NCBI RefSeq assembly: GCF_019175385.1 | Contig: NC_083339.1 | Location: 50,458,282-50,522,281, forward strand | DNA: 64,000 bases | Direction of reading: 5' to 3' | Source of the DNA: Lycium barbarum | Lineage: Eukaryota > Streptophyta > Magnoliopsida > Solanales > Solanaceae | Part shown: piece after piece, positions 15,701 through 61,460 of the stretch | Layout: each line of letters begins with the position of its first letter | Numbering within the stretch: position 1 is the stretch's first letter | Notes under the pieces: generated by a model | The model's input: the letters and a program-made list of their open reading frames with translations, nothing else | Told to the model about the DNA's origin: nothing | Database searches by the model: none | Translations under genes and position numbers: made by a program

Positions 15701-16263
15701 TACAGACAGTCGGTTTGGTGATTCTCCAGCCTAGGACTTCTGCTCAGCTGTTTCGACAGCTCCATTGTTCCGGAGCCTAGATTATTTTGGTACAGATCTT
15801 TGGTGTAGACTTATACATATCCAGGGGTACGGCGGGGCCCTGTCCCGTCATATTTTACTATGATAATGTTAGAGGTCTGTAGACATATGTGGGTTGTATG
15901 TAGGTTGTGGTCAGCTATGTCGATACGGTTTGTTTGGAGTATTTCCATATATAGTGGCAGCCTTGTCGGCTGGCATATTATGTCGTGCTTTGGTTAGCTG
16001 TGACTCCTCAGCAGATAGGTTATTATGATATATGGCGTTATGAATCTTTCGGTTGCTATTGCAAGTTTCCATACTGTCCTTAGTTTCAGTTTGATTATAA
16101 TTAGCAGGTATGTATACGAGTGTCCAGTTCGGGCACTAGTCATGGCCATGGGGTTGGGTCGTGACAAAAGGAGGGTCAGGAACGATCCTTCCTAGACACT
16201 GGTTCTATTGCACGATCTAAGATGGAAAGAAAGGTCAATGGTTCCTAAATGCCCCGCAGCGTC

Positions 16264-16300
16264 CTGTTTATAAGTGTGGCGTACTTCACACCTACAAATA
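16264..16300 (-). promoter_or_regulatory. LARD-D prime leader hairpin (dimerisation-signal-like)
   Basis: Sense strand: GGTGTG, loop AAGTACGC, CACACT, with a weaker outer stem. The 8-nt loop carries the palindrome GTAC. It lies 44 nt downstream of the primer site. This is the least perfect of the six related hairpins in the window. Confidence 0.55.
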
Positions 16301-16344
16301 AGAGTCTACTGGACATGGTCTATAGACAAACCTAGGACAAAACT

Positions 16345-16356
16345 ACTCTGATACCA
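16345..16356 (-). promoter_or_regulatory. Primer binding site (initiator Met tRNA), LARD-D prime
   Basis: Sense strand TGGTATCAGAGT, one change from the canonical plant iMet site TGGTATCAGAGC. Confidence 0.85.
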
Positions 16357-19850: not shown

Positions 19851-19863
19851 TGGTATCAGAGCC
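19851..19863 (+). promoter_or_regulatory. Primer binding site (initiator Met tRNA), LARD-C
   Basis: TGGTATCAGAGCC, a perfect match to the usual plant iMet primer site, two bases after the LTR end. Confidence 0.93.
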
Positions 19864-19907
19864 TAGGTTCGTGAATCTCGTTGTACAAAGACGTGTCTAG
19901 TAGAGTC

Positions 19908-19945
19908 TTGCGGATCGGTAGGAAGAGCTCCGTACCTATCTGTGA
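19908..19945 (+). promoter_or_regulatory. LARD-C leader hairpin with palindromic loop
   Basis: Stem GGTAGG/CGTACC with an outer 8-bp stem including wobbles; loop AAGAGCTC holding the palindrome GAGCTC. It starts 44 nt after the primer site. The sequence differs from the other families while the layout is the same. Confidence 0.6.
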
Positions 19946-20324
19946 GAGGCTATGGGACACTTAGGAAACATCAAATTCTTTCATTCTTTCGTGCTACTTC
20001 ATTCAAATTGGTATCTAGATGATTCCAATTTATATTTGCACTTCCTTGTCTTATTCTTCCACGAATGGTGGAAACCCCTCCGCTAAACTCTTATGCGAGC
20101 GATTTGTGATTATTGATCGGTTGTATTGAGTTCATTGGGGGGTGATGCAGGAATTTAGACTTCCATTGGGGATTCCAAGGCCACGAGTGAGTCCTATAGT
20201 GTTTTTACATTCATATGCATGTTTTGTTTGTGTGTGCGAGGCCTCGGATGAAATGTTGGGCGATAGAGGAAAAACTGGGCAAAAGTCGAGCTTACTGTCC
20301 AAATGAGACCACTGCGGTGGGGCT

Positions 20325-23100: not shown

Positions 23101-25382
23101 TGTCATGACCCATCTAGGGGCCATGACGGGTACCCGGGGCTAGCCACCGAGCACCATTCGTTCTGCTACTCATCTTACTCATTTAATGCTCTTTTATCGA
23201 TTTATACTTAGGACATAAGCAAATCATCTTTTCATTTTGAGAACACAAAAATACTTTTATATGCATAAGCCTCTCGGCCATCAAAATAATATATACATGT
23301 ACATGAAAGCATCTCGTGAGACCATCTAACCCACACTGCGCATCTACGAGCCTCTACTGGAATACTGAACGCAAGGACGGAAGAAGACCCCGTCATGCCC
23401 AAAATACATATACATGACTATATACACAAAAGAATAATCATAAGCACCTCCGGGACAATGGAGTGCTTCTCAAATCAGCTGACAGCTAATACGAATCTGG
23501 GTCGAGCTCTCCTCCCTGTCTACCTGTCGGCATGAACACAGCGTCCAAAGAAAACTGACGTCAGTACGAACATTGTACAGAGTATGAGAGACATAAACAA
23601 TGAAATAAGACAATGGTAATGGGAATAATATCAATATGGAACATCTGAATCTGACTGTCAAGTATAAAGAAAATAAGGCATGCATGCTATCTTACTCATA
23701 CTCATCATCTTATCATACATGCAAAATGTATAAGCTGCCCGTCCATATCGGATCGGTGTGATAATCAATAACATTAGCCTGCGTCCAGGCATCCCGCGTC
23801 CGGGGTATCATCTCATGCCGCCCACTTGTGGTGTCTGCCCATGGTATCTGGCCATGGTGTATACATATAGCTGCCCGCCTTAGCGGTGACTGCCCGACCA
23901 ACTAGGCGCGGTGTTATATCATCATCATCATAGTGTACTCATCATGGTATGCTTATCTTGTCATAGTACATGCAGAAGGCTAAAGATCAACTATACTCTA
24001 TCAGGGTGACGTAAGGTCGTGATCCCCCGATTGCATTATGGAACAACCATGGACATTCTGCCTCACCTTGAAGGAATTAGCGTATAAGGTGAGTGTAAGC
24101 GATGAATAACATCATTAGACATTTTGTACTTTAACTCATTACCTTGTGTAGCTAATTATAGACATAGGCTCGTGGATAAGAAAGTAGTTACACTACAGGA
24201 TTCATGCCATTAGAAAGAAGGGACTAGCCTCACATACCTTTCTCGTTTAAGCAATCTAGCATTCGTTTATTCTCCTTCAATGTAACGCCTCTACCTTCAA
24301 AAGAGGATTCATACTAACGTTAGTTAATCAACTATAAGAACGCATTACTATTTCTAGAGCCAATTGGGCAGCACTTCCTTTGTTTACACTACTTTTCCCA
24401 TATTTCATATCAACTTCCAACACCCACAACAACAATTACAATATAGCAATCAACAATCATCATTCATATACAATGACCATGATCCACCATTTCTCTTCAT
24501 TTTTCCCACAATTATGGTTGTGGGTTTGCTATCATATTTTCTCATGTATCACACTTATCTCATGGTATACATGTCATTTATAACCTATTCATACTCACAA
24601 CACACTAACATTTATGATTCAATACAACTACCATTCACTCATGGCACTATTCACCCATTTATGACCCATTTGCTATGCTTTTCTACAATTCGGGTATCTT
24701 AACCTTCCAATACCTTAAACAACATGAAATGGTCATGAAACTTACCTTAGATGATGGTTTAACAAGCTTTGAATGGATTTACTCCTCTAGCACCAAAACC
24801 CTACTTGAATCCTTTTAGGTTTTATTGAGAAGGATGAATTTTAATGTGATTCTCACACTTGATTTCATGGGTGCCATGTAATTGATCACCAATCTCCCTT
24901 GAGTTCTTGTAATTGAAGAGTAGAGAGTATTCTAGGAGTTTCTAGAGAGAAATATCGTCAATATGAAATGATTTGAATGAGCTTGGGTCTCTTTTTAATG
25001 ACTTAAAATCTATTCCGGAATGAACAGTGACTGAGGTGTACGGTGGTCGTAAACCCACTTTACGGGCCGTATTCTGGTTTACGGTCCGTCCTTCGTGACC
25101 GTATTTAAGCATATCAAAACCAGAAAGGCATGCTGGAGATCATGGCAATTTACGACTCAGGTTACGGGCCGTATTTTGATTTACGGTCCGTATTCCAAGT
25201 CATTTTTAACCATTTGAAGCATTTGACAGAAAGTTGAAATTTTTGAAAGGTTGGAGGACGATAGCAGTTTACGGTCCATAAATCACTTTACGGGCCGTAT
25301 TCCATTTTACGACAAACTGGGTCAAAGTGCAAACCTGTAACTTTTCACTGTACGTTTACGGGGAAATTTCCGAGGTGTAACA
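23101..25382 (-). repeat. Tekay-2 3' LTR
   Basis: 2282 bp, closely matching 30584-32865. It contains the R hairpins at 23525-23571. Near its start on the sense strand, a repeated palindromic block of TTTACGGGCCGTA and TTTACGGTCCGTA units lies at 25040-25320. Confidence 0.92.
23525..23571 (-). promoter_or_regulatory. Tekay-2 3' LTR R-region hairpins
   Basis: Sense: GTACTGACGTCAG, loop, GGACG, then CTGTG-TTCATGCC-GACAG. Each stem has one mismatch here; both are perfect in the 5' LTR copy. Confidence 0.55.
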
Positions 25383-25399
25383 CTCTCCCTCCCTTTTGG
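25383..25399 (-). promoter_or_regulatory. Tekay-2 polypurine tract
   Basis: Sense strand CCAAAAGGGAGGGAGAG directly before the 3' LTR. Confidence 0.88.
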
Positions 25400-25400
25400 A

Positions 25401-25418
25401 ACATTCGTCCTCGAATGT
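25401..25418 (-). promoter_or_regulatory. Tekay-2 pre-polypurine hairpin
   Basis: ACATTCGAGGACGAATGT on the sense strand: 7-bp arms around AGGA, just upstream of the polypurine tract. Confidence 0.7.
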
Positions 25419-25517
25419 TAAACACTCGGGATTCTACGAAAATTTCGCCAGAGTTTCCCCTGTAATCTGGCACTATCAACCTGTCACAACCACCCATACT
25501 ATCATCGCCTCACAGGG

Positions 25518-28500
25518 CTACATCACAACATCGACATATCTATGGCCACACACGGCCAAAAGCATGAAAATAAACATACATACCTTATATCGCTGGCGTT
25601 TCATCTTGAATCTCTCCTGGGGGTCAAATAAATGCGGATACTTAGACTTCATACTCTCTTCCGCGTCCCAAGTTATTTCTTCCTTGTTATTGTTTCGCCA
25701 CATGACTTTTACTGAAACCACCTCTTTGTTTCAGAGTTTTTGCACTTGACTGTCGAGGATAGCAATAGGCACTTCTTCAGAGGTTAGCTTTTCTGTTACT
25801 TGCACATCATCTATCGGAACAATATTTGTGGGATCTCCAATACACTTGCGGAGCATCGAAACGTGGAAAAATGGATGGACTGATTCAAGCTCCGAAGGTA
25901 GATCCAATTCATAGGCTACTTGGCCCACCTTGCGGATGATTTCATAGGGCCCAATGTACCTAGGACTTAACTTCCCTCTCTTGCCGAATCTCATCACCCC
26001 TTTCATTGGAGATACTTTCAGGAATACCCGATCACCAACTCGAAATTCCAAGTCTCGTCGGCGATTGTCCGCATAGGACTTTTGGCGACTTTGGGCTGTT
26101 AATAATCGATCTCGAATCATCTTAACCTTTTCCACCGCTTATTGAATCAATTCAGGGCCTACTAATTGCGTTTCTCCTATTTCGAACCATCCAACTGGAG
26201 ATCTACATTTCCTTCCGTATAAAGCTTCATATGGAGCCATTTGAATACTGGAATGATAGTTGTTGTTATATGCAAATTCAATTAGCGGAAAATGATCGTC
26301 CCAACTTCCACCAAAATTCAGCACACATGCTCATAACATATCTTCCAAGGTTTAAATGGTACGCTCGGCTTGCCCATCTGTCTGCGGATGAAACACCGTG
26401 CTAAGCTTCACTTGAGTGCCTAGATCTTCTTGAAAGGATTTCCAAAACTTGGCTGTAAATTGTGCTCCTCTGTCTGTGATGATGGATAATGGAACACCAT
26501 GAAGTCACACAATCTCCTTGAGATACAACCTTGCATAATCTTCCGCTGAGTATGTAGTCCTAACTGGGAGAAAATGGGCTGCCTTTGTCAATCTGCCCAC
26601 GATCACCTATATGGAATCATACTTGCCACGGGAACGAGGTAATCCCACTATAAAATCCATATTTATCACTTCCCATTTCCAAGTAGGGATTTCTATTGCC
26701 TGTAACAAGCCCCTTGGCTTCTGATGTTCAGCTTTTACCTGTTGGCAATTTCGACATTGTGCTACGAATTCTGCTATGTCTCTTTTCATGCCATCCCACC
26801 AGTACATCATCTTGAGATCATTATACATTTTGGTTGCACCTGGATGAATAGAATATCGAGAGCAATGTGCTTCTTCTAAAATTCGTCGGCGCATTTCCGC
26901 CACATTCGACACACATAACCTGCCTCGGTACCTAAGAATTCCATCCATGGAAACTTCAAACGAAGACTTTTCTTTCCCATGTGATGTGTCTCTATAACGA
27001 CATAACTGCGGATCTTCGCACTGCCGTTCTTTCACTTCCATATCCAAGGACGAAATTGTGGAATCATTTATACTCATCCCGGCATCGCCCGAATCAATTA
27101 CACGCCCTCCAAGATTACCCAATCGATGAAGTTCTTGAACCATCTCTTTCCTTTCCGAAGGGACTTCACATAAACTGCCCATTGATCGGCGGCTAAGTGC
27201 GTCGGCCACTACATTCGCCTTCCCGGGGTGGTATAAAATGTTAACATCATAATCTTTTAATAATTCTAACCACTGCCTCTGTCGCAGGTTCATCTCTTTT
27301 TTCTTGAAGATGTACTGAAGACTCTTGTGATCTGTATAGATATCAACGTGCACACCGTACAAATAATGTCTGCACATTTTTAAGGCATGAATGACCGCAG
27401 CTACTTCAAGATCATGAGTTGGATAATTCTTCTCATGTTTCCGCAATTGTCTCGAAGCATATGCAATAACCTTACCATGCTGCATCAATACGCATCCCAA
27501 TCCGACACTGGAAGTGTCACAATACACAACATAGCCATCTAGCCCTTCTGGAAGTGTTAGAACCGGGGCTAAGGTCAACCTGTTTTTCAACTCTTGGAAA
27601 CTGCGCTCACAGGCATCATCCCATTGAAACTTTGCTGACTTCTGGGTTAGCTTCGTCAATGGGGCTGAAATAGACAAAAATCCCTCTACGAACCTTCGAT
27701 AATAACCTGCCAAACCCAGAAAACTACGGACTTCTGTGGGCATTGTAGGCCTTGGCCAAGTCTTCACCGCTTCAATTTTCTGAGTGTCGACTCGAATGCC
27801 ATCATTGGAAATAACATAGCCCAGAAATGTTACAGAATTCAGCCAGAACTCACACTTTGAACATTTTGCATACAATTCTCAGGCTCGAAGAATACCAAGA
27901 ACAATTCTCAGATGATCCGCATGTTCCGATTCCGTGCGAGAATACACCAGAATATCATCAATAAATACTACCACAAATAGATCCAAGAGAGTCAGAATAC
28001 GTTTTTCATCAAATTCATAAACCAGCCAGAGCATTAGTCAACCCGAACGACATCACTTGAAATTCATAGTGGCCATATCTCATTCTGAAGGCTGTTTTGG
28101 GAATATCTGCTTCTCTAACCCTCACTTGATGATAACCCGACCTCAAGTCTATTTTAGAAAACCACTTGGCACCTTGCAATTGGTCGAATAAGTCATCAAT
28201 CCTTGGAAGAGGATAATTGTTCTTTATCGTCACTTTGTTCAATTGCTTGTAATCGATGCACATCCGTAGAGATCCGTCTTTCTTTCTTACAAACAAAACT
28301 GGAGCTCCCCGCAGTGATGAGCTGGGTCTAATAAATCCCTTTTCGAGCAAATCTTTTAGCTGCGCCTTTCACTCTTTTAATTTTGCCGGGGCCATTCGAT
28401 AAGGAGGAATAGAAATAGGCTTGGTGTCCGGCAACACATCAATGGCGAAGTCAATCTCCCTTTCTTGAGGAATTCCTGGAAGTTCGTCTGGAAACACATC

Positions 28501-30378
28501 TGTGAATTCATTCACTACCGGAACTGATTGAAAAGTTGGTGGCTTTGCTTCGGTGTCATGAACCCGAACTAAGTGATAAATATAGCCCTTGGCTATCATC
28601 TTCCTTGCCTTAAGGTAGGAAATAAACCTACCTTTCGGTGATGCTGCATTACCCTTCCATTCAAGCACGGGCTCTCCCGGAAATTGGAATCGAACTACTT
28701 TTGTTCGGCAATCGACATTAGCATAGCATGATGCCAACCAATCCATACCCATAATTACATCGAAGTCTACCATTTCCAGCTCAATCAAATCAGCTTTTGT
28801 CTGGCGATCACATATCACAACTACACAATTTTTATACACTTGCCTTGCTATCACGGGATCACCAACCGGAGTAGACACCTCAAAAGGTCTGATCGGCTCA
28901 GGTTTCACCCCAATACAACCAGCAACATATGGAGTAATATAGGAAAGAGTAGAACCCAGATCTATCAGTGTATATACATCACGGGAGAATATAGACAATG
29001 TACCTATAACGACGTCCGGGGAGGACTCAAGGTCCTATCATCCCACTAAATCATATACACGGGGCTGAGTGGCACCTGAAGTAGATGATGCCCCTCTGCC
29101 TCTACCTCGGCCTGCTGACATCTGGGGAGCCTGCCCTACCGGGCGTGCTGAGGAAGAGCCGGCTGCTGAACCTATAGGCTGAACTCCAACTCTACCACTC
29201 GTTGACGGGCAATCTCTCATCATGTGCCCAACTTGGCCGCAAGTATAGCAAGCGTCCGAACCCTAGCGACACTGTCCGGAATGCAATCTACCGCATTGGC
29301 TGCATCGCGGTACTGGAGGTTTCTTCTGACTATAGTCTTCCCTGAACTGGAAATCTGAGGCCCTCGAACTCTGGCCCTGTCCTGAACGGAAAGAGCGATC
29401 AAATCTCCTACATGTAGATCGGGGAGGTGAACTAGTCACCGACTGGACTGAGTACCCAGAATATGTCTGCCTTGATCCCCCTCTATAATCACTGTCAGCT
29501 CCCATAGATCTGGCCCTCTTGCCTTGCCTTCTATCGACATCATGGTCGCCTCTTTGTTGTTGTTGTCGCCCCTCCAAATTCTGAGCATGGGCCTGTATTC
29601 GGGAAATATCCGTCCCGTCTTGCAAGGACACCGTCAAGCAATCTCTGAATAAATGTGGCCCTAGGAAACTCACAAATCTATGTACCCGATCTCCCATGTC
29701 GGCCACGATAGCCGGAGCATATCTAGCCAAGGAATTAAATTGCATGCCATACTCCCGGGCACTCATATTTCCTTACCTCAGATTTAGAAACCTGTCCGCC
29801 CTAGCTCGGCGGACCTCGGGTGGCAAAGAGTGACGAATAAATGCATCCACAAATTCTTGCCAAACCGGAAGGGGCGCATTCTCTCCTCGTGACATTACCC
29901 AGTTGTTATACCATAAAACAGCCATATCCCGGAGTCTATAAGATGCCAACTCCACGGATTCAGTTTCGGAGGCATGGACAATCTTTAATGTCCTCAACAC
30001 CTCATCTATGAAACCTTGCGGGTCTTCATCCGGCTTTGACCCGAAAAACTCCGGAGGATTTAGGCTCATAAAATCATGGGCTTTGGTACTTGCTGCCCGG
30101 TCACTGGAACCCCCACTTTGTCGTTGTGCCTGTGCGGCAACCAATTGTGTCAATAACTGGATGGCCTCGGTCATTTGTTGACCCGAAGCAACCGGTGGAG
30201 AAATTGGAGCTGGAGCTCCTCCTTGCCCTTCCACATTAGGCAGGGTAGAAGAGGTATTAGATAAGGCCTCATTATGTGATTAGCCTTCTTCGATATTCGT
30301 CGGAGGCTCTCTTTCTACCCGCCTCTTTGTCGTAGTCTTTCCCTTATGGGCGACTGTAGCCTTCCCTTTTGGCGACAT
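25518..30378 (-). pseudogene. Tekay-2 gag-pol polyprotein (chromovirus), broken
   Basis: Gag starts at the ATG at 30378 (MSPKGKATVAHKGK). The remaining order is gag core (30234-29263), zinc knuckle CYTCGQVGHMMRDC (about 29246-29205), protease [11 protein letters not shown] (about 28965), reverse transcriptase (28350 to about 27880, with [10 protein letters not shown] and FIDD near 27960), RNase H ([11 protein letters not shown], about 27500), integrase ([11 protein letters not shown] zinc region, NMDF, YNNNYHSS, RYIGPYEII) and chromodomain (SVKVMWRNNNKEEITWDAEE, 25718-25659). Lesions include TAA after RFLNLR (29773-29775), TAG before the zinc knuckle (29263-29265), a stop at 28369, indels near 28000, TGA at 27876, TAG in place of integrase Trp (26607), TGA near 26505 and 26325, TAA at 26139, and TGA just before the chromodomain (25731-25733). 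In the living state this polyprotein makes particles, copies RNA to DNA and integrates it, with the chromodomain guiding insertion to heterochromatin. Confidence 0.92.
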
Positions 30379-30486
30379 TCTGAAATCAGAACATACTATT
30401 AGGGAGGATAAAATCTTACATGCGGCTCTACCGCACGATCTCACGAGAAGAAAGATGGTCATTTTTCCTAAATGCCCTGTAGCCTC

Positions 30487-30523
30487 TTGTTTATTGATGT
30501 AGCGCGCAACACACCATAAACAA
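30487..30523 (-). promoter_or_regulatory. Tekay-2 leader hairpin with palindromic loop
   Basis: Sense: TTGTTTAT, GGTGTG, loop TTGCGCGC, TACATC, one bulged A, ATAAACAA. The outer stem is 8 bp and perfect; the inner 6 bp include two wobbles. The loop ends with the palindrome GCGCGC. It lies 44 nt downstream of the primer site. Confidence 0.7.
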
Positions 30524-30567
30524 AACTCTACTAGACACGGCTCGTAGACACTTCCTAGGACTGAACC

Positions 30568-30579
30568 GCTCTGATACCA
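30568..30579 (-). promoter_or_regulatory. Primer binding site (initiator Met tRNA), Tekay-2
   Basis: Sense TGGTATCAGAGC, four bases after the end of the 5' LTR. Confidence 0.93.
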
Positions 30580-30583
30580 CTTT

Positions 30584-32865
30584 TGTCACGACCCATCTAG
30601 GGGCCGTGCCGGGTACCTGGGGCCAGTCACCGAGCACCATTCGTTCTGCTACTCTTCTTACTCATTTAATGCTCTTTTATCGATTTATACTTAGGACATA
30701 AGAATATCATCTTTTCATTTTGAGAACACACAAATACTTTTATATGCATAAGCCTTTTGGCCATCAAAATAATATATACATGTACATGAAAGCATCTCGT
30801 GAGACCATCTAACCCACACTGCACATCTAAGAGCCTCTACTGGAGTACTGAACGCAAGGACGGGACAAGACCCCGTCATGCCCAAAATACATATACATGA
30901 CTATATATACAAAAGAATAATCATAAGCACCTCCGGGACAATGGAGTGCTTCTCAAATCAGTTGACAGCTACTACGAATCTGGGTCGAATTCTCCTCCCT
31001 ATCTACCTGTGGGCATGAACACAGCGTCCAAAGAAAACGGACGTCAGTACGAACATTATACTGAGTATGAGAGGCATAAACAATGAAATAAGACAATGGT
31101 AATGGGAATGATATCAATATGGAACATCTGAATCTGACTATCAAGTATAAACAAAATAAGTAATGCATGCTATCTTACTCATACTCATCATCTTATTATA
31201 TATGCAAAATGTATAAGCTGCCCGTCCATATCGGTTCGGTGTGATAATCAATAACATTAGCCTGCGTCCAGGCTTCCCACGTACGGGGTATCATCTCATG
31301 CCGCCCACTAGTGGTGTCTGCCCATGCCATCTGGCCATGGTGTATACATATAGCTGCCCGCCTTAGCGGTGACTGCCCGGCCAACTAGGCGCTGTGTTAT
31401 ATCATCAACATCATAGTGTGCTCATCATGGTATGCTTATCTTATCATAGTACATGTATAAGGCTCAAGATCAACTATACTCTATCGGGGTGACGTAAGGT
31501 CGTGATCCCCCGATTACATTATGGAACAACCATGGACATTCTGCCTCACCTTGAAGGAATTAGCGTATAAGGTGAGTGTAAGCGATGAATAACATCATTA
31601 GACTTTTTGTACTTTAACTCATTACCTTGTGTAGCTAATTATAGACATAGGCTCGTGGATAAGAAAGTAGTTACACTATAGGATTCATGCCATTAGAAAG
31701 AAGGGACTAGCCTCACATATATTTCTCGTTTAAGCAATCTAGCGTTCGTTTATTCTCCTTCAATGTCACGCCTCTACCTTTAAAAGAGGATTCGTACTAA
31801 CGTTAGTTAATCAACTATAAGAAGGCATTACTATTTCTAGAGACAATTGGCCAGCACTTCCTTTGTTTACACTACTTTTCCCATATTTCATATCAACTTC
31901 CAATACCCACAACAAAAATTACAATATAGCAATCAACAATCATCATTCATATACAATGATCATGATCCACCATTTCTCTTCATCTTTCCCACAATTATGG
32001 TTGTGGGTTTGCTATCATATTTTCTCATGTATCACACTTATCTCATGGTCTACATGTCATTTATATCGTATTCATACTCACAACACACTAACATTTATGA
32101 TTCAATACAACTACCATTCACTCATGGCACTATTCACCCATTTATGACCCATTTGCTATGCTTTTCTACAATTCGGGTATCTTAACCTTTCAATACCTTA
32201 AACAACATTAAATGGTCATGAAACTTACCTTAGATGATGGTTGAACAAGCTTTGAATGGATTTACTCCTCTAGCACCAAAATCCTACTTCACTCCTTTTA
32301 GGTTTTCTTGAGAAGGATGAATTTTAATGTGATTCTCACACTTGATTTCGTGGGTCCCCTGTAATTGATCACCAATCTCCCTTGAGTTCTTGTAATTGAA
32401 TAGTAGAGAGTATTCTAGGAGTTTCCAGAGAGAAATATCGTCAATATGAAATGATTTGAATGAGGTTGGGTCTCTTTTTAATGACTTAAAATCTATTCCG
32501 GAATGAACAGTGACTGAGGTGTACGGTGGTCGTAAACCCACTTTACGGGTCGTATTCTGGTTTACGGTCCGTCCTTCGTGACCGTATTTAAGCATATCAA
32601 AACCAGAAAGGCATGCTGGAGATCATGGCAATTTACGACTCAGTTTACGGGCCGTATTTCGATTTACGGTCCGTATTCCAAGTCGTTTTTAACCATTTGA
32701 AGCATTTGACAGAAAGTTGAAATTTTTGAAAGGTTGGAGGACGATAGCAGTTTACGGTTCGTAAATCACTTTACTGGCCGTATTCCATTTTACGACCAAC
32801 TGGGTCAAAGTGCAAACCTGCAACTTTTCACTGTACGTTCACGGGGAAATTTCCGAGGTGTAACA
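30584..32865 (-). repeat. Tekay-2 5' LTR
   Basis: 2282 bp. It shares the palindromic ACGGGCCGT/ACGGTCCGT block (32520-32800) and the R hairpins with the 3' copy. It shows scattered base differences from the 3' LTR, consistent with an insertion of moderate age. Confidence 0.92.
31006..31050 (-). promoter_or_regulatory. Tekay-2 5' LTR R-region hairpins
   Basis: Sense: GTACTGA, CGTCC-GTTTTCTTT-GGACG, then CTGTG-TTCATGCC-CACAG. Both stems are perfect and differ from the family-E stems by paired (compensatory) changes. Confidence 0.62.
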
Positions 32866-34845
32866 TTTATGAGGCGCTTCGAAAATAGAAGGCTCGTGTG
32901 GAGTAGTTCGTGGCTTCTGTTCTGCATTCCAGATAGGTTATGACTTACTTTAGTTAGACTTCGATTAGCGAAACATATGTATTGTGTAGAATTGATGGGA
33001 GAAAGCATTATTAGGCCTTCGCACATGGTGTTTTGGTTGGATAGTAGCTAGGTTGGTATGACTTCTGATTTTGTAGGCTTGTCGCCATTGTGTTATGTAC
33101 TGAAATATGAGGTGTAGTTGTATTCATACTGTGGTGATTCGGGATGGATTTCTATTAGATTTCTTTTTATGGTGGCTTGTTGCCCTATTATTGTGATTAG
33201 ACTTATTGCCTAATTTATCGTGTTGTACTCAGTATCTCTCTTATTGTGACACATATTATCGGAAAAATGAAGGATAATGAGTTTAGGCCTGAATTGTGAT
33301 ATAAACTTATCACAATGCGTAGATGAAAACTTGATGTATGATTTACTGTTGATGATAATATATAGAAAAATGGAGCTTCTTGGTGATACAAGACTTAGTT
33401 GTGAGGCGTACTTGCTATGTGAGGAAGTAAAGAGGGACATAAACTCTTATGTTGGTTGAGATGGTTTGTATGATTCATTTTATGGTTGAGTTAATCCAAG
33501 TCTTGATATGACTTGTGGCTTGGTAACTTGTACCTTCGCTATTGCTTTATTAGCTTGTATTGATTTACCATGTTTACACTCATTTATGCATTCATACACT
33601 CATACATGATGGAAATGTTTCGGAAACGATTCATGAAGACTTATGGCATGATGCGTTGTGTTTGACATTGTTATTGCTAATTGTTCATAGTCCATACATA
33701 CTAATGAACTGGAATACGTTGAGACATACATTGTGATGTGAAATTAGTGAAGAAGTTAATATAATCTTCTTGTTGAACTTGTGATACTATTTGATATATG
33801 GTACTTGATGAATTGATCATTGAGAGTGATGTGACAGTGTTACTATACATATGAAAAGGCACATTTGACTGGGGGTAAGGATGTGGCCTGGTTATGGGCT
33901 CGTGGCCCGAGGTTAGTTTCGAAAATGAGAGGTACGTTGATATGGGCCGCGTCCGAGGTTCCTTCCGGAGCAGAGGTTTATGCTCAGGTGCGTGGAGTGA
34001 ATCCGGAACGAGTGGTACATGGACACCATGTGTCCCCTATAGATCATGACTACCGAGCAATGACATCAATTAGCATATGTGTACAATTCAAGTGATTGGC
34101 CAGTGCATGGCATTGCATTGTATTGCACATCATCATATTTTGCATTGCACATCATTACATTTTATTCTGCATTATAATATGCTCGTTCGTTTTTTATTTT
34201 GGTATGGATGTTGAATGCCTATTATAAGATAATGATGACCATTGACTACGTTAAATTGTGGATTAGTGACTCTACCTAGGGAAGGAACTTAGACTTGTGA
34301 TTATGAGGTAAGAATATTCAAACTTGACAGACTTATGTGTTAGAAACTTCATCTTAGGTTGTGACTCTATCATGAGATATTTTCTGACTTGGATTTTAGT
34401 GTTAAGTGCCTATCTGTATATCTTGTTGATTTTATACTTACAAGCGTTAAAAAATCTTAGTCAGCCTATGTTGCTTACCGGTGCATAGTGTTTGTACTGA
34501 TACTACCTTGTTGCGCCTTTTTTTTAGTGTAGATTGTATTCCAGAGGTTTCATCCATATTACATCTCTAGCTTGAAGCTAGTTTGCTCGATCAGATCCGA
34601 GGGTGTTTTTATCCATTCCATGCCACTTGAAGATATCTCTTTCCAGATGTCTATTTTTATTCCAGACATTATTTGTTATTATATCTGAGATATGCTTCAT
34701 TCTTTAGACATTGTAAATTAGAATCCTTGTACGATGACTTTCAGATTTTGGGGTTGAAATAGTTAGACTTCCACACTTATATTATCTATTAAGTATGACT
34801 TGTTTTATTTATTCATTCATTCACTTATCTATTGACTGTTAATAA
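32866..34845 (+). repeat. LARD-C 3' LTR, second part (truncated)
   Basis: Resumes the LTR exactly after Tekay-2 and aligns with about 17756-19733 of the 5' LTR. It breaks off at about 34845, so roughly 115 bp of the LTR end are missing. Confidence 0.85.
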
Positions 34846-35372: not shown

Positions 35373-36619
35373 AAATATATGTATATCACGCATGTGCTGA
35401 CATATACCGATACTGTAATTTTCTTTCTGTCTCTCAATGAACTCAAGGACATGGGGAGGGGATATGGCCCCTCAGGAAGAATAACATAACACTCGAAAAC
35501 TACGCAACAATATGACAAGCTCTACTTTGACAAATCTCTAGTCACAAGGTTCATTATGCTCTTACCATACATGGAATCATGCCAAGAAAAGAAGGAACAG
35601 CCTTAAGATACCTGGAAGCTTACTTCTCGGCTTTCTAACCTACTTCCTATCTTGCAATCTACATAAGATCATTCGTAGTCTCATAATCTACATAAAAAAA
35701 CTATTCATACTATTGTTAGGCTCATTGTCATATGCTTGTCTTAAGCTTTCAAACTAAATTCCCTTAGAATCTGCTGAAATTCGAGCAACATCTCCTCTGT
35801 TTATATCCCTAGCCCGAAATCACAATACCAACAAAACAACAATAGTAACAACACTAGTATAAACAATATCATCATCAATACTAATATACTCAATAAAAAA
35901 ATCCCACACGATGTTTACCCAATTTCTCAACCAATCAATCGACTTTACGAAGCTTTATCAAGTAAATCTCCATAATACAATTCGTAATATCCATAGTAAA
36001 GAATATCCTTACCTTAATCAAGATAGGAAGATCTTGAAATCTTGTTTATCTTCAATAGATTCCTTAGTCCTGTCAAGATTTGATGTTTAAAGTAAATAGC
36101 TTCTAGAGGTCGTGGATTTTCCTCAGCGTGTTTGCGCACTGCGCTGGTGCGTTCGCGCACTGTAGTTGGACGTGCCTCTACACGTTCACGCACTGCACTG
36201 GCGCGTTCCCGCAGAGTAATCCCTTCACAGCCGGCCTAACTTGTAACGACCATAACTCTCTACTCCGATGTCATATCGACGAGCGGTTTGTTGTGTTGGA
36301 AACTAGACTTCATGAACTTCATTTTAGGATTTTACTTTACTTCCAAACTTTTCGTATGCTAAAAGATGTTATTTCCCAAAATTGGCTCATTCTTGTCGTT
36401 CAAAGTAGCGTTCATCTTCTTCCAAAGTCATGCTAACTCAACTTCTTCCACTCATTTCCTTATAGGACCTTCCGGAATTCCTTATATGCATCCTTCATTC
36501 ATAAAATATACTCAATAATGCTTCACTCCATATAGTCCAAAGTTGTTTTACTTAGCCATAGTTCAACATACTTATGCTCAAACTTGATAAGTGCTTCTCC
36601 AAAAGTAGAGGGTGTAACA

Positions 36620-37834: not shown

Positions 37835-40440
37835 TGTTACACCCTGTATCTTCAAAGAGCACTTATCAACTTTGGACTATATGGAGTGAAGCATTATTGA
37901 GTATATTTTATGAGTGAAGGATGCATATAAGGAATTCCGGAAGGTCCTATAAGGAAATGAGTGGAAGAAGTTGAGTTAGCATGACTTTGGAAGAAGATGA
38001 GCGCTACTTTGTACGACAAGAATGAGCCAATTTTGGGAAAGAATATCTTCTATCATACGAAGAGTTTTGAAGTAAAGTAAAAGCCTAAAATGAAGTTCAT
38101 CAAGTCTAGTTTCCAACGCAACAAACCACTCGTCGATAGGACATTGGAGTAGAGAATTATGGACGTTAGAAGTTCAGCTGACAGAGCAGAATCGCATGCT
38201 ACAGTATTGCCACAGTAAACTGCTACAGTGCTGCTACAGTGCTGCTACAGCAAAGCCGACCCGGATTTGACCCGAATTTGACCCTTATAAAAAGGGTAAG
38301 AACCCTCTTTTTCACGAGATTTTAGCCCAGATTTTGCCCAGAAAATTCTAGAAATTCAAGAGAGAGAGAGAGGGAAACAAAAAGTAAGCAATTTTCAAGT
38401 GACGGAGTATTAATCGAAGCTCGGATAAACGCATAGATGTGATTCTAGTATGGTTTTGCGGTGGATTCAAGGTGGATAGTAAAGATATCGCTGTTTTAAC
38501 AAAAATAAGGTATGAATCTCTCCTTATTAATATTACTTTTGGTTTATTTACGAAGATAGAGTGATGAAATGGTTGTATAATAAAGTTGTTGGTTGGGAAA
38601 TTGGACAAACATCGTGTGGGATGTTTTATGGAATATTTTGGTATTGATGATGATGTTGTTGATGTTGGTGCTGTTGTAGTTGTTGTTTTGTTGGTATTGT
38701 GATTTCGAGCTAGGCATATGAACAGGGGAGGTGCTGCCCGAATTTCGGCAGATTATAAATGGATTTATTTGAAGGACTAAGACAAGCGTATAACGATGAG
38801 TCTAACGATTGTGTAAATCCTGTTAAATGTAGACTTGCGAGCTTGGACAAATAGGCGTAGATAATAGGAGGTGGGACAGGTATGTTAAGGCTCGTCCTTT
38901 TCTTTCAAAGGCATGATTCCTATGTTATGATTTCATAAATGTTTCCATATCTTCCTTGTCATCAAAAGTTAAAAGTCTAAGATTCCAAGGCATGATTCCC
39001 TTCCTGATAACCCATAAATGTTTTCCAAAATGTCCATATCTTTCCAAAACAAAGGTTTATGATTTTATAAGCTTTTATGACTATAACGACGGACATGTTT
39101 TTGTAATGACAACGATGATGTCAAAGATGAGAAGATGTCTATGATGATTATGATGAAAATTGTTTCATGATTTGGAAGTCTCAAGTTGTGGATTTAATAT
39201 GAATATGAGAATATTGAGCGATTTCTTGATCCTCAATTTTATTCCTTGGTAATAACTCTATTTTCTAAAGACTTCAAAGTGTACGAATTGGCGCCTTATG
39301 AGATTTATGACCTTATTCTATGTTTTCTCTTGATGTTATTCTTCATTGATAGTCTCACCTTAAAATAATTGTTCCTTCAAGATGAGATAGAGCGATGATG
39401 ATTATTCCATAATATAATCGGAGTTTGCCGACCTTACGACACTCCGATAGAAACATAACTTTCCTTGGGCTCTCCTGCATGCTGCTTACATGATGTATGT
39501 ATATGATATATGTATATGATACATGAACATGATATATGTACATGATGCATGAACATGATACATGTATATGAATATGGGAAAGAGGGCTAGAGCGCTATAG
39601 ACGCGTATCCACCTGATCAGTTGGTATTATATGACATGATATCATCCCGGACGCGGGATGCCCGGAAGTGGGACATATGTGGCTAAATGGATCGGAGTCG
39701 ACGCCTCGGGAACATGATATGTTCTATTTTCTGTATATATGAACAAGAAATGTTTTTCAAAGAAAGCTAAGCATGCATGGCATCCGCCCTAAGAGGCACT
39801 CATATGGACAAGTTATTCTTTTATCTTACGATATGCCCTATATTTCCATTCTATTATTATTCATACTTTACATCCCTTACTATGTTACTATTCATGCCTT
39901 ATATACTCGGTACATTACTCGTACCGACGTCCCTTCTTGTGGACGCTGCGTTCATGCCCGCAGGATCAGGTAGCCAGTCGGACGATCCATCGTAGTAGGA
40001 CCTCTCCTCAGCAGCAGACAGTACGCTCCATTGATCCAGAGCTACAGTCCTTTTGGTATGTCATTCGGTTACGTACATATATGGTATGGCAGGGCCTTGT
40101 CCTGTCATTTTTACAGTTTGTACTCTATAGAGGTCTGTAGACAGCGATATGTAGTCGTGTTGTTATGCAGCCCCGTCAGCACTTATTTTGTTGTACAGTA
40201 TATGTGTATGGCGGCCAAATCGGCTCACGCTGTTATTCTCAGTGTTTATGTTTATATGTATGCATTGGCCGTGAGTTTCCGGTACGGTGTCTTTTATGTT
40301 TATTGTTCGGGAGACAGTATAGCACAGTTACAGATTGTATATGGGCCCAGGATAGTCAGTGAGAAGTAAATGCAAGCACGGGAATGCTTGGCCAGTAGTG
40401 GTCGGGCATTTGTTACGGCCCATCGATTTGGGTCGTGACA
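37835..40440 (+). repeat. LARD-D 5' LTR (2.6 kb)
   Basis: Starts TGTTACACCCTG and ends GGGTCGTGACA. Near its start, at 38195-38252, it has tandem GCTACAGTGC units. The R hairpins are at 39920-39963. Confidence 0.85.
39920..39963 (+). promoter_or_regulatory. LARD-D R-region hairpins
   Basis: TATATA at 39902 is followed by GTACCGA, CGTCC-CTTCTTGT-GGACG, then CTGCG-TTCATGCC-CGCAG. Both stems are perfect. Confidence 0.62.
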
Positions 40441-40444: not shown

Positions 40445-40456
40445 TGGTATCAGAGC
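40445..40456 (+). promoter_or_regulatory. Primer binding site (initiator Met tRNA), LARD-D
   Basis: TGGTATCAGAGC four bases after the LTR end. Confidence 0.93.
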
Positions 40457-40499
40457 AGTTCGTCCTAGGGATTGTCTACAGACCGTGTCCGGTAGAGTC

Positions 40500-40537
40500 C
40501 TGTTTATGGGCGTGAAGCCGGCCACACTTATAAACAG
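40500..40537 (+). promoter_or_regulatory. LARD-D leader hairpin with palindromic loop
   Basis: CTGTTTAT, GGCGTG, loop AAGCCGGC, CACACT, ATAAACAG. The outer 8-bp stem is perfect and the loop ends with the palindrome GCCGGC. It starts 43 nt after the primer site. Confidence 0.68.
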
Positions 40538-40658
40538 AAGGTTGCAGGGCATTTAGGAATCATTGACCTCTTCTATCTTAGATCGTGGGATTGAGCCAGA
40601 GTCTAGGAAAGATTGCTTCTGACCTCTTTTCCTGTAGGTAGGCGTAGACTGACGAGAG

Positions 40659-47500: not shown

Positions 47501-49621
47501 AAGTCAATAGAGAAGTCTATCTCCCGCTCTGGAGGAAGACCTGGAAGCTCATCGGGGAAAACATCTGGAAACTCATTAACCACGGGGACTGACTGAAGTA
47601 TCGGCATCTCTGCTCCCAAGTCTAGCACCCGTACCAGATGATAGATATAACCCTTTCTGATCATTTTCTTCGCCTTAAGGTACGAAATAAACTTACCCTT
47701 CGGCGATACCGTATTACCAGCCCATTCTATAACTGGCTCCCCGGGAAACTGGAAACGAACCACCTTATTCTGGCAGTCAACATTAGCGTAACAGGAAACT
47801 AGCCAATCCATACCCATAATAACATCAAATTCAGTCATATCTAACTCTACCAGATCTGCCTTAGTGTCACAGTCACAAACAATTACGGAACAATCTTTAT
47901 ATACCTGTTTCGCTACAATAAAGTCCCCGATCAGTGTGGCTACCTCAAATGGCTCTATAGGTTCAGACATAATACCAATTCTACCAGCAACAAGGGGTGA
48001 AATATATGATAAAGTCGAACCTGGATCAATTAGTGCATACACAGACCGAGAGAAGACCAATAAAGTACCTGTAACGACATTAGGAGATGCCTCCTGATCC
48101 TGGCGGCTGGCCAAAGCATAAATGCGGTTCGAAGGACCGCTAATACCAGAAGCTCCACCACGGCCTCTGCCGCGACCCGCTGGTGCTGGAAAACCCTGCC
48201 CCGTAGGGCGCATAGCCACTGACAAAGACGAAGACCCAGCGGCTGATCCGGTAGGCTGCGCTGCACCACCCGAACTACCCTTATACGGGAAATCTCTCAC
48301 AGAATGGCCCTGACGACCACAACAAAAGCATGCACCGGTGGCTCTGTAGCACTCCCCCGGATGATACCTGCCACAAAGAGAACACTGAACCCTGGGTGGC
48401 CTCATCTGACCAGAACCCCTATCTGTCCGCGAACCTAAAGCCCTGGAGCTCTGGCCTGCTCCTGAATACCCTGGGCTATCAAACCTGCGACCTGTAGGCT
48501 GGGGAGGCGCGCTCTGCACCGGCTGAGATGAAAATCTGCTAGGCTGTTGGGGCTGTCTGCCCCGAAAATCTCCAGATGACCTGGCCCTCTTGGGCTGTCT
48601 CCGATCCTGGCCCCTGTCAGGCTGGTGTCCTCCTCTGCCCCGATCCTCCATGCCCTGGGCATGGGCCTGAATACGGGCAATGTCCATACCGGGCTGAGCA
48701 GCCAATACTAAACAGCTATCAACAAAATAACGATCCAGCCCCATAATATATCTGTGCATCCGGTCCGCCATAGTAGTCACCACAGCAGGTGCATATCGGG
48801 CCAAGGAATCAAACTCCAAACTATAGTCCCGGACACTGCGGCCCTTCTGCCTCAATAATAAGAATCTATCAGATCTGGCTCGTCGCACCTCTGGGGGCAG
48901 AAAATGTCCAAGAAATGCCTGAGAAAAATCGCCCCAAACTGCTGGAGGAGCGCCGTCCCCTCGGGATAGCTCCCATGACTCGTACCAGTTTGCCGCCACA
49001 TCATATAACCGGTACGAAGCTAACGCGACTGACTCTGTCTCGGAAGCATTAATCAAATCGAGAGTGCGCCGCATCTTCCTGATAAACTCCTCGGGATCCT
49101 CCTCGGGCTTTGTCCCGAAGAATTCTGGAGGACTACAAGTCAAAAACTCACGGGCTCTCGAACTATCACGCCTGACTGCCCGGTCACCTCCCAGTCCATG
49201 CCCCTGAACCTACCTTGCCACAAGTCTAGTCAGTAACTGGACTGCCTCCCTCATAGACTGATCCTCAGTGCCTGGCCGTGGAGCTGGAGGCTCAGGTACT
49301 GGAACTGCGGGAGCTGGCGGTGGAGCCGCCCCCCGATCTGCAGCTACGGCCGCCCCAATCTCCTCCACGAGTGGCGGTGTAGAAGAACCCTCTGTCTGGG
49401 GCAAAGTCTCCGGAGCAATATGTGCCTGGGCCCTGGTAATCCTCTGGACCCGGCTAGCCTCTCCCAAGGCTGCTGACATGGCCTTTTGAGCCGCTGTTGC
49501 CTTTTTTGGAGGCATATCTGCAAATATAGCCACTCGTTAGGGAGGGGTCATCCTGATAACACAACTCTATCGTACGATCTAAGACAGAAAGAAGGGTAGT
49601 ATCCTAAATGCCCTGTAGCCT

Positions 49622-49661
49622 CCTGTTTATAGGTGTGGTGCACAACACACCGATAGACAAG
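49622..49661 (-). promoter_or_regulatory. Tekay-1 leader hairpin with palindromic loop
   Basis: Sense: CTTGTCTAT, C, GGTGTG, loop TTGTGCAC, CACACC, T, ATAAACAGG. The inner 6 bp are perfect; the outer stem has one mismatch. The loop ends with the palindrome GTGCAC. It lies 41 nt downstream of the primer site. Confidence 0.7.
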
Positions 49662-49702
49662 ACTCTACTAGACACTGTCTGTGGACAATCCGAGGACGAA
49701 CT

Positions 49703-49714
49703 GCTCTGATACCA
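49703..49714 (-). promoter_or_regulatory. Primer binding site (initiator Met tRNA), Tekay-1
   Basis: Sense TGGTATCAGAGC, four bases after the 5' LTR. Confidence 0.94.
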
Positions 49715-55585: not shown

Positions 55586-55603
55586 ACATTTGAGGACGAA
55601 TGT
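55586..55603 (+). promoter_or_regulatory. Pre-polypurine hairpin at the LARD-D/TRGAG-E junction
   Basis: ACATTTGAGGACGAATGT (one wobble in the stem) runs directly into the LTR start TGTTATACC; the usual polypurine tract is missing. Confidence 0.65.
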
Positions 55604-57134
55604 GTTATACCCCATATATTTATACGTCGAAATATTCACAAGCAAGTCGACTCAAATTAAAGACAGGATCATTTTCGGACACGAAATAGAAATCCTTAAT
55701 TTTCAATTTTAATTAGAACATAAATTGTTTATAAATTTTACTTAGAGTAAAAATATTATTGGAGATTAGGGACTAATTAATTGCGATTATATTATTAAGC
55801 AAGAATTAGTGATTAGTTAAATTAATTAAGATTAATTAATAAAGTGGGCCCTACCCGATTTTTAAATTAAAAAAAAAAAAAAAAAAGATGACACATAAGG
55901 GGGGGGGGGGGGGGGTACGTGTAGGGCTTGGGAGACTAACACATATGTATCATCAAATGACTCATTTAATCACCATTCATACCTTAGTTGAATCAAGAAC
56001 AAAGAGAAAGAAAGAATAGGAAAAAAAAAAAACTCTCGGCCATGGATGCTTTGGCCGAGCATTGAGAGAGTGAAGGAGAAAAATTAAGGTTTCAAGGTGT
56101 TATACACATTCAAGGATTGCAACGTGAATTAATCCTTGGAGTCAAGTTGATTAAGGCAAGATTTGATCTTTTTTTTTTACACGTTTTGGAAGTGATTTAA
56201 ACTTGTATAAATTGGTAAATGTGTGATGAATATAAGAAGTAGTATATGTTGATGTTGAAATGTAAATTGAGTCGTGTAGGGGGATGCTTTAATTAGGCAT
56301 GGTGAATTGATTTTTAAGGTTGTTGTTATCAGAGATTATATAGTAAAAGAATGAAAGAATTAGATAGTTAAGATTAAAGTTGGGATGTTATGAACATGTT
56401 GTTATCCTTGTCAAGTTGAAAGGAATGAAGATATGATTATGTCTATATGTTGTTGTTGGTATTTCTGTGTTAACAGGAGGGTAATTGGAAATTCGGGTTA
56501 GGCGAATATATAGGGGAAATGCTGCCCGATTTTCGTTAAATCTTTAACTAATGGAAAACATTAAACGAGAATGTATAAGCTAAAGGATAAGTTCTATAAA
56601 GAAATGGTCTACGGATTTACGAACTGGAAAATATAGTTACTGACGATAACGTTACCTTTATATTAAATAGGCTAAAAGAGCGACAAGGCGAACAGGTTTG
56701 CAAATAGTCGCTAACAGGTATGTAAAGCTAACCCATCTTTCTTTGGGCATGGTCTTTATGAAACAAACAGATGACGTATATATGACTCCACAGAAGCTCA
56801 TATTCTTAGAGCCACTAGGATGGCTAATGTCCTTGATTCTCAAAACTTACTTTATTATGTCTTGATACGTATCTATGATATTCTTAAGCCGGAAGCGGCT
56901 GCCCGAAGGGGCCACCCTAGCTAAGCCGGAAGCGGCTGCCCGAAGGGGCCATTATGACTACGCCGGAAGCGGCCGTCCGAAGGGACTATTGTGTTATTAG
57001 TCGGAAGCGGCTACGAGTATGATTATATATTTATATTGTGTATGCTAGGATTTGTGTAAGGGACCACATGGCATGGTTCCAAAAGTTGTTCCAGGTTACT
57101 CCCGGTTTGCTTTCTAAACTTGCTTACTGTTGCG
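55603..57134 (+). repeat. TRGAG-E LTR 1, 3'-truncated
   Basis: Aligns with 59176-60694. It has a poly(A) tract at 55869-55886 and 17 G at 55899-55915 (7 in the other two copies). A CTCGGCCA...TGGCCGAG inverted repeat lies at 56035-56063. GGAAGCGGCTGCCCGAAGGG units lie at 56886-57017. The rest of the LTR, primer site, leader and gag start are deleted. Confidence 0.9.
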
Positions 57135-58220
57135 ATACACATTCAGTCTCAGAGTTCTCCTACTTCCCCACCTTCGGAGGAGCTCAGAGGGGGACCTGAT
57201 CCAGCCCTAGCCCCAGCACCATCAGTACCTCCAGTCCCTCAGCCGGATGCTCAGGGTCAGGAGATAAGAGAGATGAGAGATGCTATACGTTTGTTGACTC
57301 AGATACTTGCTACCCAGGCTGGACGACAGGATAGGGGTCATGAGTATCCATATAGGGCCGCTAGTGCCAGGGCCCGAGATTTTCTTATATTAGATCCCCC
57401 AGAGTTTAAGGGAACGAACTCTAATGCTGATCCTCAGGAGTTCATAGATAGTATGCAGCGTACCTTAAGTGTGATGAAGGCGTCAGCTACAGAATCTGGT
57501 GAGTTAGCTACTTATAGATTGCAGGGTATAGCAATTAATTGGTTTCAGTCATGGAGATTATCGAGGGGTAGGGATTCTCTTCCGCCGACTTGGCAGGAAT
57601 TCTCAGATACCTTCTTGCGCCATTATATTCCACCCGAGTTGAGGCGGGCAAGGGTTGATAGGTTCCTTAACCTGCAGCAGGGTAGCATGTCTGTTAGAGA
57701 GTATAGTGTGGAGTCTGATTCTTTGGCCAGATGTGCCCTTTTTATTGTGCAGGAAATGGAAGATAGAGTTCACCGATACGTGATGGGATTAGAGCCAGGG
57801 TTGCAGGAGGCTTGTATGGCAGTAGCGATGCAGCCAGGTATGGATATACCTCGTATTCAGGCTTATGCTCAAGGGTCAGAGGATCGTAGGCGCCAGCGAG
57901 AGGCTATCTCAGAGCAGAGTAGTAGTCAGCCCAAGAGGGCCAGGTCAAAGGGTCAGTATAGAGGTTCCACTAGCGAGAGCAGACCCCAGTATACTGCACC
58001 TCTGCAGTTTCGAGGATCTCAGCGGCGTAGGGAGACTTACCTTAGGGAGGGACAGAGTTCTTCTGATGCATTGGGTTCTCAGCAGCAGGTGGGGTCAGGG
58101 CTGGAGGTGATGCCCCCTCCTCGATGTGCGACTTGCGGGAAACGTCATGTAGGACAATGTCGTCAGGGTGTATGCTATACTTGTGGTGATCCGGGGCACT
58201 ATGCTAGAGATTGCCCATAA
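57120..58220 (+). pseudogene. TRGAG-E gag, copy 1 (N-terminus deleted, fused to LTR)
   Basis: From 57135 the frame is gag, matching copy 2 from residue about 36 of MTRKSKATAAQ. It has the retrotransposon gag core (DPPEFKGTNSNADPQEFID, RGRDSLPPTWQEFSD, PPELRRARVDRFLNLQQG), a basic Arg/Ser/Gln linker, CATCGKRHVGQC and the complete zinc knuckle CYTCGDPGHYARDC. It stops with TAA at 58218-58220, where copy 2 has CAA. The open frame enters from the LTR without an ATG. This is the longest undamaged gag core in the window. It is clearly related to Tekay-1 gag. Confidence 0.9.
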
Positions 58221-59160
58221 AGAGTGGGTAATATTGTTCCTCAAAATTCGGTAGCAACGTCGTCATCCTCAGTGTGAGCCCCAGACACAGGACTCCAGAC
58301 TTCTTCCGGCAGAGGTAGAGCATCTAGCTCTAGTACTGGGCCGCATCTTATCTACGCTCTAGGTGGGAGATCGGATCTAGATACACCGCAGGATACACCA
58401 TCAGGTATACCCTTCTTCAGACAAATTATTGATGGACTTAAGCTATATACGAACTGTCCCTTATCACTATGACATGATGTATTACAACATAAGTTAGAAT
58501 ACAAGCATAGGGGTTAATGGGGTAAATCGAGACAAAAGACTTAGTGAAACACTTAGTTGAAACCTTAAGGGGGGAACTGCCCATAGCATAGCAAGACCAT
58601 AGCTATAAATCCGAACTAGGGTAAACGAATAGAAGACTACCTTTGATATGTAACCTTTTAGTTATTATAGCATGATACCGGCAGTATCACATCCCATATT
58701 TTCTTGCATTGGAAAGCGTGCGAGTTAAATGACAGTACTAACGAAGACGTGGTTATCCCCCAAGCTTATAGGTTATTAGAGTAACAGGACGTATGCGTTG
58801 GACATGGTAGAAGTTAAAAAAAAAAAGAAAAAAAAAGTTTCGTCAAGGGTTGAAATTTATTTGAATAAGACTAAGTGCACAAGGAAGAAAGCAAGATTTC
58901 AACGGAAGAGCTCGCAATACAACTGACAACGGACTGCGAAGTAAGAAGAGAGTAAAGGCAATGACATGAAATTATTACCTCGGGAAGCAACAGAAAGAGG
59001 AGATATTATAGGAATGACTATGTAGAGATGTGGGATGCGTTATAATAAATTATAGCGAATCGACAAACGGAGAAGATATGTTAAGGGCATAATCAAATAA
59101 CAGAACACTTGAGAAAGTACTGGGGTTCAGGACCAGTTTAACATTCGAGGACGAATGTTC
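58221..59160 (+). other. TRGAG-E copy 1, gag-protease linker remnant and 3' region
   Basis: 58221-58402 encodes, with stops, the linker seen before protease in Tekay-1 (IYALGGRSDLDTPQD against [11 protein letters not shown]). At about 58403 it jumps to non-coding 3' sequence. 58687-58870 resembles the first 190 bp of LTR-F (921-1110). Confidence 0.75.
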
Positions 59161-61255: not shown

Positions 61256-61267
61256 TGGTATCAGAGC
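61256..61267 (+). promoter_or_regulatory. Primer binding site (initiator Met tRNA), TRGAG-E copy 2
   Basis: TGGTATCAGAGC four bases after LTR 2. Confidence 0.94.
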
Positions 61268-61309
61268 AATTCAGTCCTCGGCATGTTCGCAGACGGTGTT
61301 TAGTAGAGT

Positions 61310-61349
61310 CTTGTTTATCGGTGTGTTGTGCACCACATCTATAAACAGG
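61310..61349 (+). promoter_or_regulatory. TRGAG-E leader hairpin with palindromic loop
   Basis: CTTGTTTAT, C, GGTGTG, loop TTGTGCAC, CACATC, T, ATAAACAGG. It has about 15 bp with two wobbles and one mismatch; the loop ends in GTGCAC. It starts 42 nt after the primer site. Confidence 0.7.
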
Positions 61350-61460
61350 AGGCTACGAGACATTAATAGGGTGTCATTCCTTCTTTCGCGTTGAAGATCG
61401 TGCAATAGAGCTGTGTCATAAGTGAAGTCCTTAATCTAATAATGTTGTATGATTTCAGCA

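Follow-up and report, generated by a model that had tools for sequence, protein, structure and literature searches.

The SL1/DIS hairpin of HIV-1, a retroviral dimer-initiation signal, stands downstream of the primer binding site (PBS) and carries in its apical loop a 6-nt G-C-rich palindrome, of which GCGCGC and GUGCAC are the hallmark forms (PMC516451). An internal loop beneath its apical stem binds NC and Gag (PMC5874298). Among LTR retrotransposons, an apical hairpin palindrome of Ty3 (DS/PAL6) drives dimerisation in vitro (PMC11381356), and kissing between the loops SL1a and SL3a of Ty1 has been proposed for RNA dimer initiation (PMC5454406). In plants, one paper speaks of 'conserved dimerization and packaging signals' in BARE2, a Ty1/copia element, and the parasitic partner of the BARE1/BARE2 pair is said to keep them (PMC3735527).

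LTR retrotransposons can account for the larger part of a plant genome. How they select and pair their RNAs for packaging is little known, as is the way in which protein-less LARD and TR-GAG elements are carried along. The first-pass annotation of the DNA analysed here knew of no description of a kissing-loop signal of this kind for plant chromoviruses. For plant Ty3/gypsy elements this stands: the literature searched, which leaves most subscription journals outside it, contained no report of kissing-loop dimerisation, and the whole word 'dimer' is absent from a 2025 review of the host factors of plant LTR retrotransposons (PMC12786077). It does not stand more widely, since Ty3, Ty1 and BARE2 provide precedents.

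Architecture of the leader hairpin

The window, i.e. the whole stretch of 64,000 nucleotides of Lycium barbarum that was analysed, contains six leaders with the primer binding site TGGTATCAGAGC, which in one copy ends in T. We take this site to be of the iMet type. A hairpin with an 8-nt loop had been reported after every intact primer site, and both leader and loop were recovered at all six places. On the plus strand, the LARD-D site (40445..40456) is followed by a hairpin at 40484..40553, with the loop AAGCCGGC at 40515-40522 and its hexamer at 40517-40522; LARD-C has its site at 19851..19862 and its hairpin at 19892..19961 (loop AAGAGCTC, 19923-19930), and TRGAG-E at 61256..61267 and 61295..61364 (loop TTGTGCAC, 61326-61333). 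The other three lie on the minus strand: Tekay-1 (site 49703..49714, hairpin 49607..49676, loop TTGTGCAC at 49645-49638), Tekay-2 (site 30568..30579, hairpin 30471..30539, loop TTGCGCGC at 30509-30502) and LARD-D prime (site 16345..16356, with one substitution, TGGTATCAGAGT; hairpin 16248..16317, loop AAGTACGC at 16286-16279).

In all six leaders the spacing from PBS to loop hexamer is 59-62 bases, and the hairpin sits after the PBS; the retroviral DIS likewise belongs to the 5′ leader, with the PBS before it and gag after it. Position relative to gag was read for Tekay-1 and TRGAG-E, not the LARDs: the Tekay-1 hairpin is upstream of an ORF bearing a gag domain, and that of TRGAG-E precedes a stretch that shares 94.8% identity with the gag-ORF stretch of the neighbouring copy. 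As in Ty3, the palindrome occupies the apical part of a hairpin in a Ty3/gypsy element; the Ty3 site, CUGCAG at nt 391-396, is placed in the GAG ORF (PMC11381356), whereas here it lies ~60 nt after the PBS and upstream of gag.

The long hairpin of the first-pass annotation is present, but it is only the top of a larger structure, a compound hairpin of 26 pairs in 70 nt, in which the helices GTGTCT/GGGCAT and GTAG/CTAC were found beneath the reported stem. At its base, GTGTCT/GGGCAT is separated by a 1x1 mismatch from GTAG/CTAC; a 2x2 internal loop leads on to ten pairs, and above these, in most copies after a further 1x1 mismatch, six pairs carry the 8-nt loop. An internal loop beneath the apical stem is also found in HIV-1 SL1/DIS (PMC5874298). 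This structure is based on leader folds of five copies and on a 70-nt alignment of all six. When 27 pairs were modelled in the six copies, 94.4% of the 162 cells were paired; the outermost modelled pair (columns 1-70) is spurious, as it pairs in 2 of 88 leaders (see below for this sample).

Each 61-nt stretch folded alone gave the hairpin in 6 of 6 cases, with z-scores of -1.43 to -4.69. Folds of whole leaders (five copies) had no consistent gain in stability over shuffles (z from -0.01 to -2.74), which counts against a DIS. A covariance model of the six copies, run without filters, found no further copy in the window, the next-best match having E = 0.11, and a comparison to Rfam gave 0 matches at the gathering threshold.

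Loop hexamers in the window and across the genome

The last six loop bases had been described as a palindrome in five of the six copies, differing between families, and this is what we found: the hexamers are GCCGGC, GAGCTC, GTGCAC (twice) and GCGCGC. TRGAG-E has the loop of Tekay-1, while LARD-C and LARD-D each have their own. The sixth hexamer, GTACGC in LARD-D prime, is not a 6-nt palindrome, yet it contains the 4-base palindrome GTAC. As a chance level, a palindromic hexamer was present at the same offset in 58 of the 1315 window hairpins with a stem of at least 5 bp and an 8-nt loop (4.4%). The predicted minimum-energy fold of LARD-C partly closes its loop, GGA pairing with TCC across it (three extra pairs); the predicted probability that the 8-nt loop is fully open is 0.082 in LARD-C against 0.66-0.99 in the other five, which counts against a DIS. 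Four leaders of the LARD-C group with the loop ATGAGCTC have an open 8-nt loop when folded.

The comparison was extended to the source assembly (1.67 Gb, 164 contigs), where the pattern PBS...AGTAGAGT has 8871 matches and a looser PBS/leader pattern 39480, some places being counted more than once. The list of matches to the looser pattern follows the genome along contig 1 (1.77-21.08 Mb), and is thus independent of the loop. Among the matches listed, 30 loci (some of them the same place twice) and 53 stretches were taken, together with 8 loci of the tighter pattern; removal of duplicates, judged by identity over 125 bases, left 82, all on one contig, and the 6 window copies brought the sample to 88. 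In these 88 non-identical leaders, copies from the same genome, 76 hexamers are palindromic, of six kinds: GTGCAC (36), GCGCGC (25), GAGCTC (7), GACGTC (5), GCCGGC (2) and GGCGCC (1). At all other hexamer positions of the aligned 75-base stretch, at most two kinds of palindrome occur. A single divergent leader outside the main groups (G000 C1, L021) has the loop TAGGCGCC (GGCGCC).

A protein search with the leader ORF in ENA contigs yielded 11 small ORFs and no new loop: at the loop, 7 of the 11 read LCT, which fits GTGCAC, 2 read KPA, which fits GCCGGC, and 2 end before it. The search in another frame gave one match, already among the finds of the 11-ORF set. Nine loci in viral contigs, across scans, were judged to be chance phage matches or to hold no confirmed relative, and one bacterial match among genome contigs was rejected as chance.

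The two commonest hexamers, GCGCGC and GTGCAC, are the hallmark palindromes of the HIV-1 DIS (PMC516451). The likeness described is architectural. Unlike in HIV-1, a single genome has several palindromes, which differ by family, and in the 8-nt loop as modelled the hexamer is preceded by two bases (UU, AA, AU, UA and others), with no loop base after it. These two bases are free, with seven kinds (TT, i.e. UU, in 51/88 and AA in 12/88), and the flanking purines of the HIV-1 type are not kept, which counts against a DIS. The covarying loop suggests that plant Ty3/gypsy elements, too, have arrived at the retroviral kissing-loop solution, with the same hexamers as in HIV-1, whether through convergence or through deep inheritance. 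The proposed Ty1 mechanism is also loop-loop dimer initiation in an LTR retrotransposon, but uses two different complementary loops (PMC5454406) where there is a single self-complementary one here. BARE1/BARE2 are, like our elements, plant LTR retrotransposons; they belong to Ty1/copia, and the statement on their signals does not give loop sequence or covariation (PMC3735527).

Six kinds of palindrome mean at least five switches from one palindrome to another; parsimony gives 11, on a weakly resolved tree from a short stretch. As read from the loops themselves, one self-complementary hexamer has thus given way to another on at least five occasions. When self-complementarity is kept while the sequence changes, the simplest cause is that the loop pairs with its identical counterpart on a second RNA molecule. 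We conclude that the hairpin is probably an RNA dimer-initiation (kissing-loop) signal like the retroviral SL1/DIS. The kissing-loop interpretation of the first-pass annotation, from which we infer dimerisation, packaging and recombination, is supported, and the observation behind it is stronger than first stated. The annotation had named two outcomes that would speak against it, a large alignment lacking covariation and loops palindromic at no more than the chance rate. Versions of both tests, run on copies from this one genome, gave the opposite result, with at least two Watson-Crick types in 10 of 27 stem pairs and palindromes of six kinds in 76 of 88 loops. The presence of the hairpin in autonomous, TR-GAG and LARD elements is best read as a DIS-like structure common to all three.

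According to this reading, two genomic RNAs of one family would touch via their loops through six G-C-rich pairs, and a nucleocapsid-like Gag may turn the kissing complex into a more stable dimer. The dimer would be packaged into a virus-like particle, where two templates would allow strand transfer; TR-GAG and LARD elements may keep the signal because it helps them to enter the particles of autonomous relatives. When a palindromic loop of the window pairs with its own kind, the predicted loop-loop energy is -7.9 to -11.7 kcal/mol, compared to -1.7 to -2.8 for 5 of the 6 pairs of different palindromes and -6.6 for GTGCAC with GCGCGC. We also considered, as a tentative idea that we rate as rather doubtful, that the palindrome acts as a private key. 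Each family would then pair its RNA with no other, and a six-base code would set which RNAs are co-packaged and recombine among the many related elements of the genome, in which case TR-GAG and LARD elements would either share the key of their helper or carry their own. Given the cross-pairing of GTGCAC and GCGCGC at -6.6, such a code would be leaky. A covarying loop with six natural palindromes in one genome makes the choice and pairing of RNAs directly testable.

The alternative that survives best, although we hold it to be unlikely, is a packaging or Gag-binding element: the loop would bind protein, and the palindromes would be incidental or favour the binding of a protein dimer to the RNA. 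The hairpin is located where retroviral packaging signals lie, and its lower helices and internal loop are conserved. Protein binding, however, would be expected to preserve the loop sequence, not to let five further self-complementary sequences take its place.

Common descent combined with chance, a few families with palindromic loops having happened to amplify, appears still less probable. It draws strength from the fact that the copies are not independent, many sharing one loop by descent, that the tree is weak, and that LARD-C accounts for every one of the four double stem changes seen in the six window copies. Against it, six kinds of palindrome at one position face at most two elsewhere in the aligned stretch, and neutral simulations rarely or never reproduce the pattern, even with a palindromic ancestor granted. 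On a tree of six leaves (20 settings), the probability of at least 5 palindromes at matching divergence was 4×10−5 to 9×10−4, and that of at least 5 palindromes and at least 4 kinds was 0 to 2×10−5 over the 20 settings. With 88 leaves and a palindromic root (six settings, 20,000 runs per setting), at least 76 palindromic leaves were obtained with a frequency of 0 to 0.046, the value of 0.046, at the lowest rate, counting against a DIS; at least six kinds were obtained with a frequency of 0 to 5.5×10−4, and both together at most 5×10−5 per setting, a bound given by the smaller of the separate frequencies. Moreover, broken loops occur in copies with more stem damage. The 12 non-palindromic loops of the sample differ from a palindrome by one change (six loops), two (five) or three (one), and their copies have a mean of 2.5 stem mismatches, compared to 1.24 in the others (Mann-Whitney p = 0.011, 88 leaders).

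Further data bearing on common descent and on the dimer-initiation reading come from two other sets of loops. The LARD-C-like group has 1076 matches in the genome, of which 100 were listed, giving 90 places; one shorter hairpin was set aside. In the remaining 89, which are older-looking copies, 56 hexamers are palindromic, of two kinds (GAGCTC 47, GACGTC 9), a proportion that we counted against a DIS; every non-palindrome is present in at most 4 copies among the matches listed (n = 89). Going from GAGCTC to GACGTC changes both bases of the central pair, and the mixed forms GAGGTC and GACCTC were found once each. Loops on the Tekay-type stem rarely have a purine at position 2, with 166 places genome-wide; among the 100 of these that were listed, inspection by eye found only 2 palindromes (GAGCTC and GGGCCC), and most of the remaining loops lie a single step away from GCGCGC, GTGCAC or GCCGGC, as derivatives of these. 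They look like mainly dead copies, and compensation is thus visible between families, not within that set, a result likewise counted against a DIS. Finally, GCGCAC, which is one transition from each of the two commonest palindromes and unable to self-pair fully, has 373 occurrences genome-wide on the Tekay-type stem, which was also counted against a DIS.

A third alternative, intramolecular pairing of the loop in a long-range pseudoknot or a monomer-dimer switch, seems very improbable. Retroviral leaders do have alternative monomer folds. In the six window copies, on the other hand, no exact second copy of the hexamer exists from 300 nt before to 600 nt after the PBS start, and an intramolecular partner would not need a palindromic loop.

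Stem pairing and strand

The stem was analysed on the same 88 leaders. The stems had been said to change while staying paired. Covariation across the 88 leaders bears this out: two or more Watson-Crick types occur in 10 of the 27 stem pairs, every such type being present in no fewer than 2 of the 88 copies, all from the same genome. The example of GGTAGG/CGTACC in LARD-C, however, does not, as it contains a G-G mismatch. Overall, 2166 of 2371 stem cells are paired, whereas 500 shuffles gave a mean paired fraction of 0.882 (sd 0.0025) and a maximum of 0.889.

The wobble pairs indicate the strand. Decay should produce about as many G-U as A-C cells, and an excess of G-U means selection on the sense RNA. 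In the 88 leaders, G-U was found in 401 cells and A-C in 41, with 17 pair columns in excess for G-U and 4 for A-C; in the six window copies the counts are 30 versus 4 cells, and 17 versus 4 pair columns (p = 0.007). We conclude from these alignments that it is as sense RNA that the stem has been maintained. A role of the region as double-stranded DNA, either the site of a dimeric DNA-binding protein or a cruciform, is the weakest of the alternatives and can practically be set aside: every palindrome is symmetric in DNA as well, but the sequence of the site differs between families, the G-U excess is expected only for sense RNA, and the covariance model, built from these same six copies, scores 79-92 bits on the sense strand versus 24-46 on the antisense.

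Host elements and neighbouring anatomy

The ORFs of Tekay-1 encode, in order, Retrotrans_gag, RVP_2, RVT_1, RNase H and then integrase domains. This order fits a Ty3-type element, the name Tekay being the label of the first-pass annotation. In the integrase ORF of Tekay-1, no Pfam match to a chromodomain was found at E <= 0.001; SH3_Tf2-1 is present at its end. Those gag relatives that bear an organism name are mostly from Lycium and Nicotiana. The identity between LTR pieces is 98-99% for Tekay-1, 95.9% for Tekay-2, ~90% for LARD-C and 93-95% for the TR-GAG array.

The leaders contain a second palindrome, CCTAGG, located 11-20 nt from the PBS start in 4 of the 6 window copies. It was rejected as a compensated palindrome, Tekay-1 and TRGAG-E having CCTCGG.

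The TR-GAG region (window 55603-64000) is an LTR-internal-LTR-internal-LTR array. Its first internal copy is without the PBS and hairpin region that the second has, and the repeat spacing jumps by ~865 bases. Tekay-2 (23100-32866) is apparently inserted in the 3′ LTR of LARD-C, which is split at 23100/32867; the matching 5′ LTR of LARD-C is at ~16595-19846. An inverted repeat of 308 bases, 94% identical (36238-36545 and 37867-38174), flanks a LARD-C-like LTR fragment. On the minus strand, window 8594-11041 contains ORFs with Transposase_21, Transpos_assoc and DUF4218 domains, a set that we take to be typical of a CACTA-type DNA transposon.
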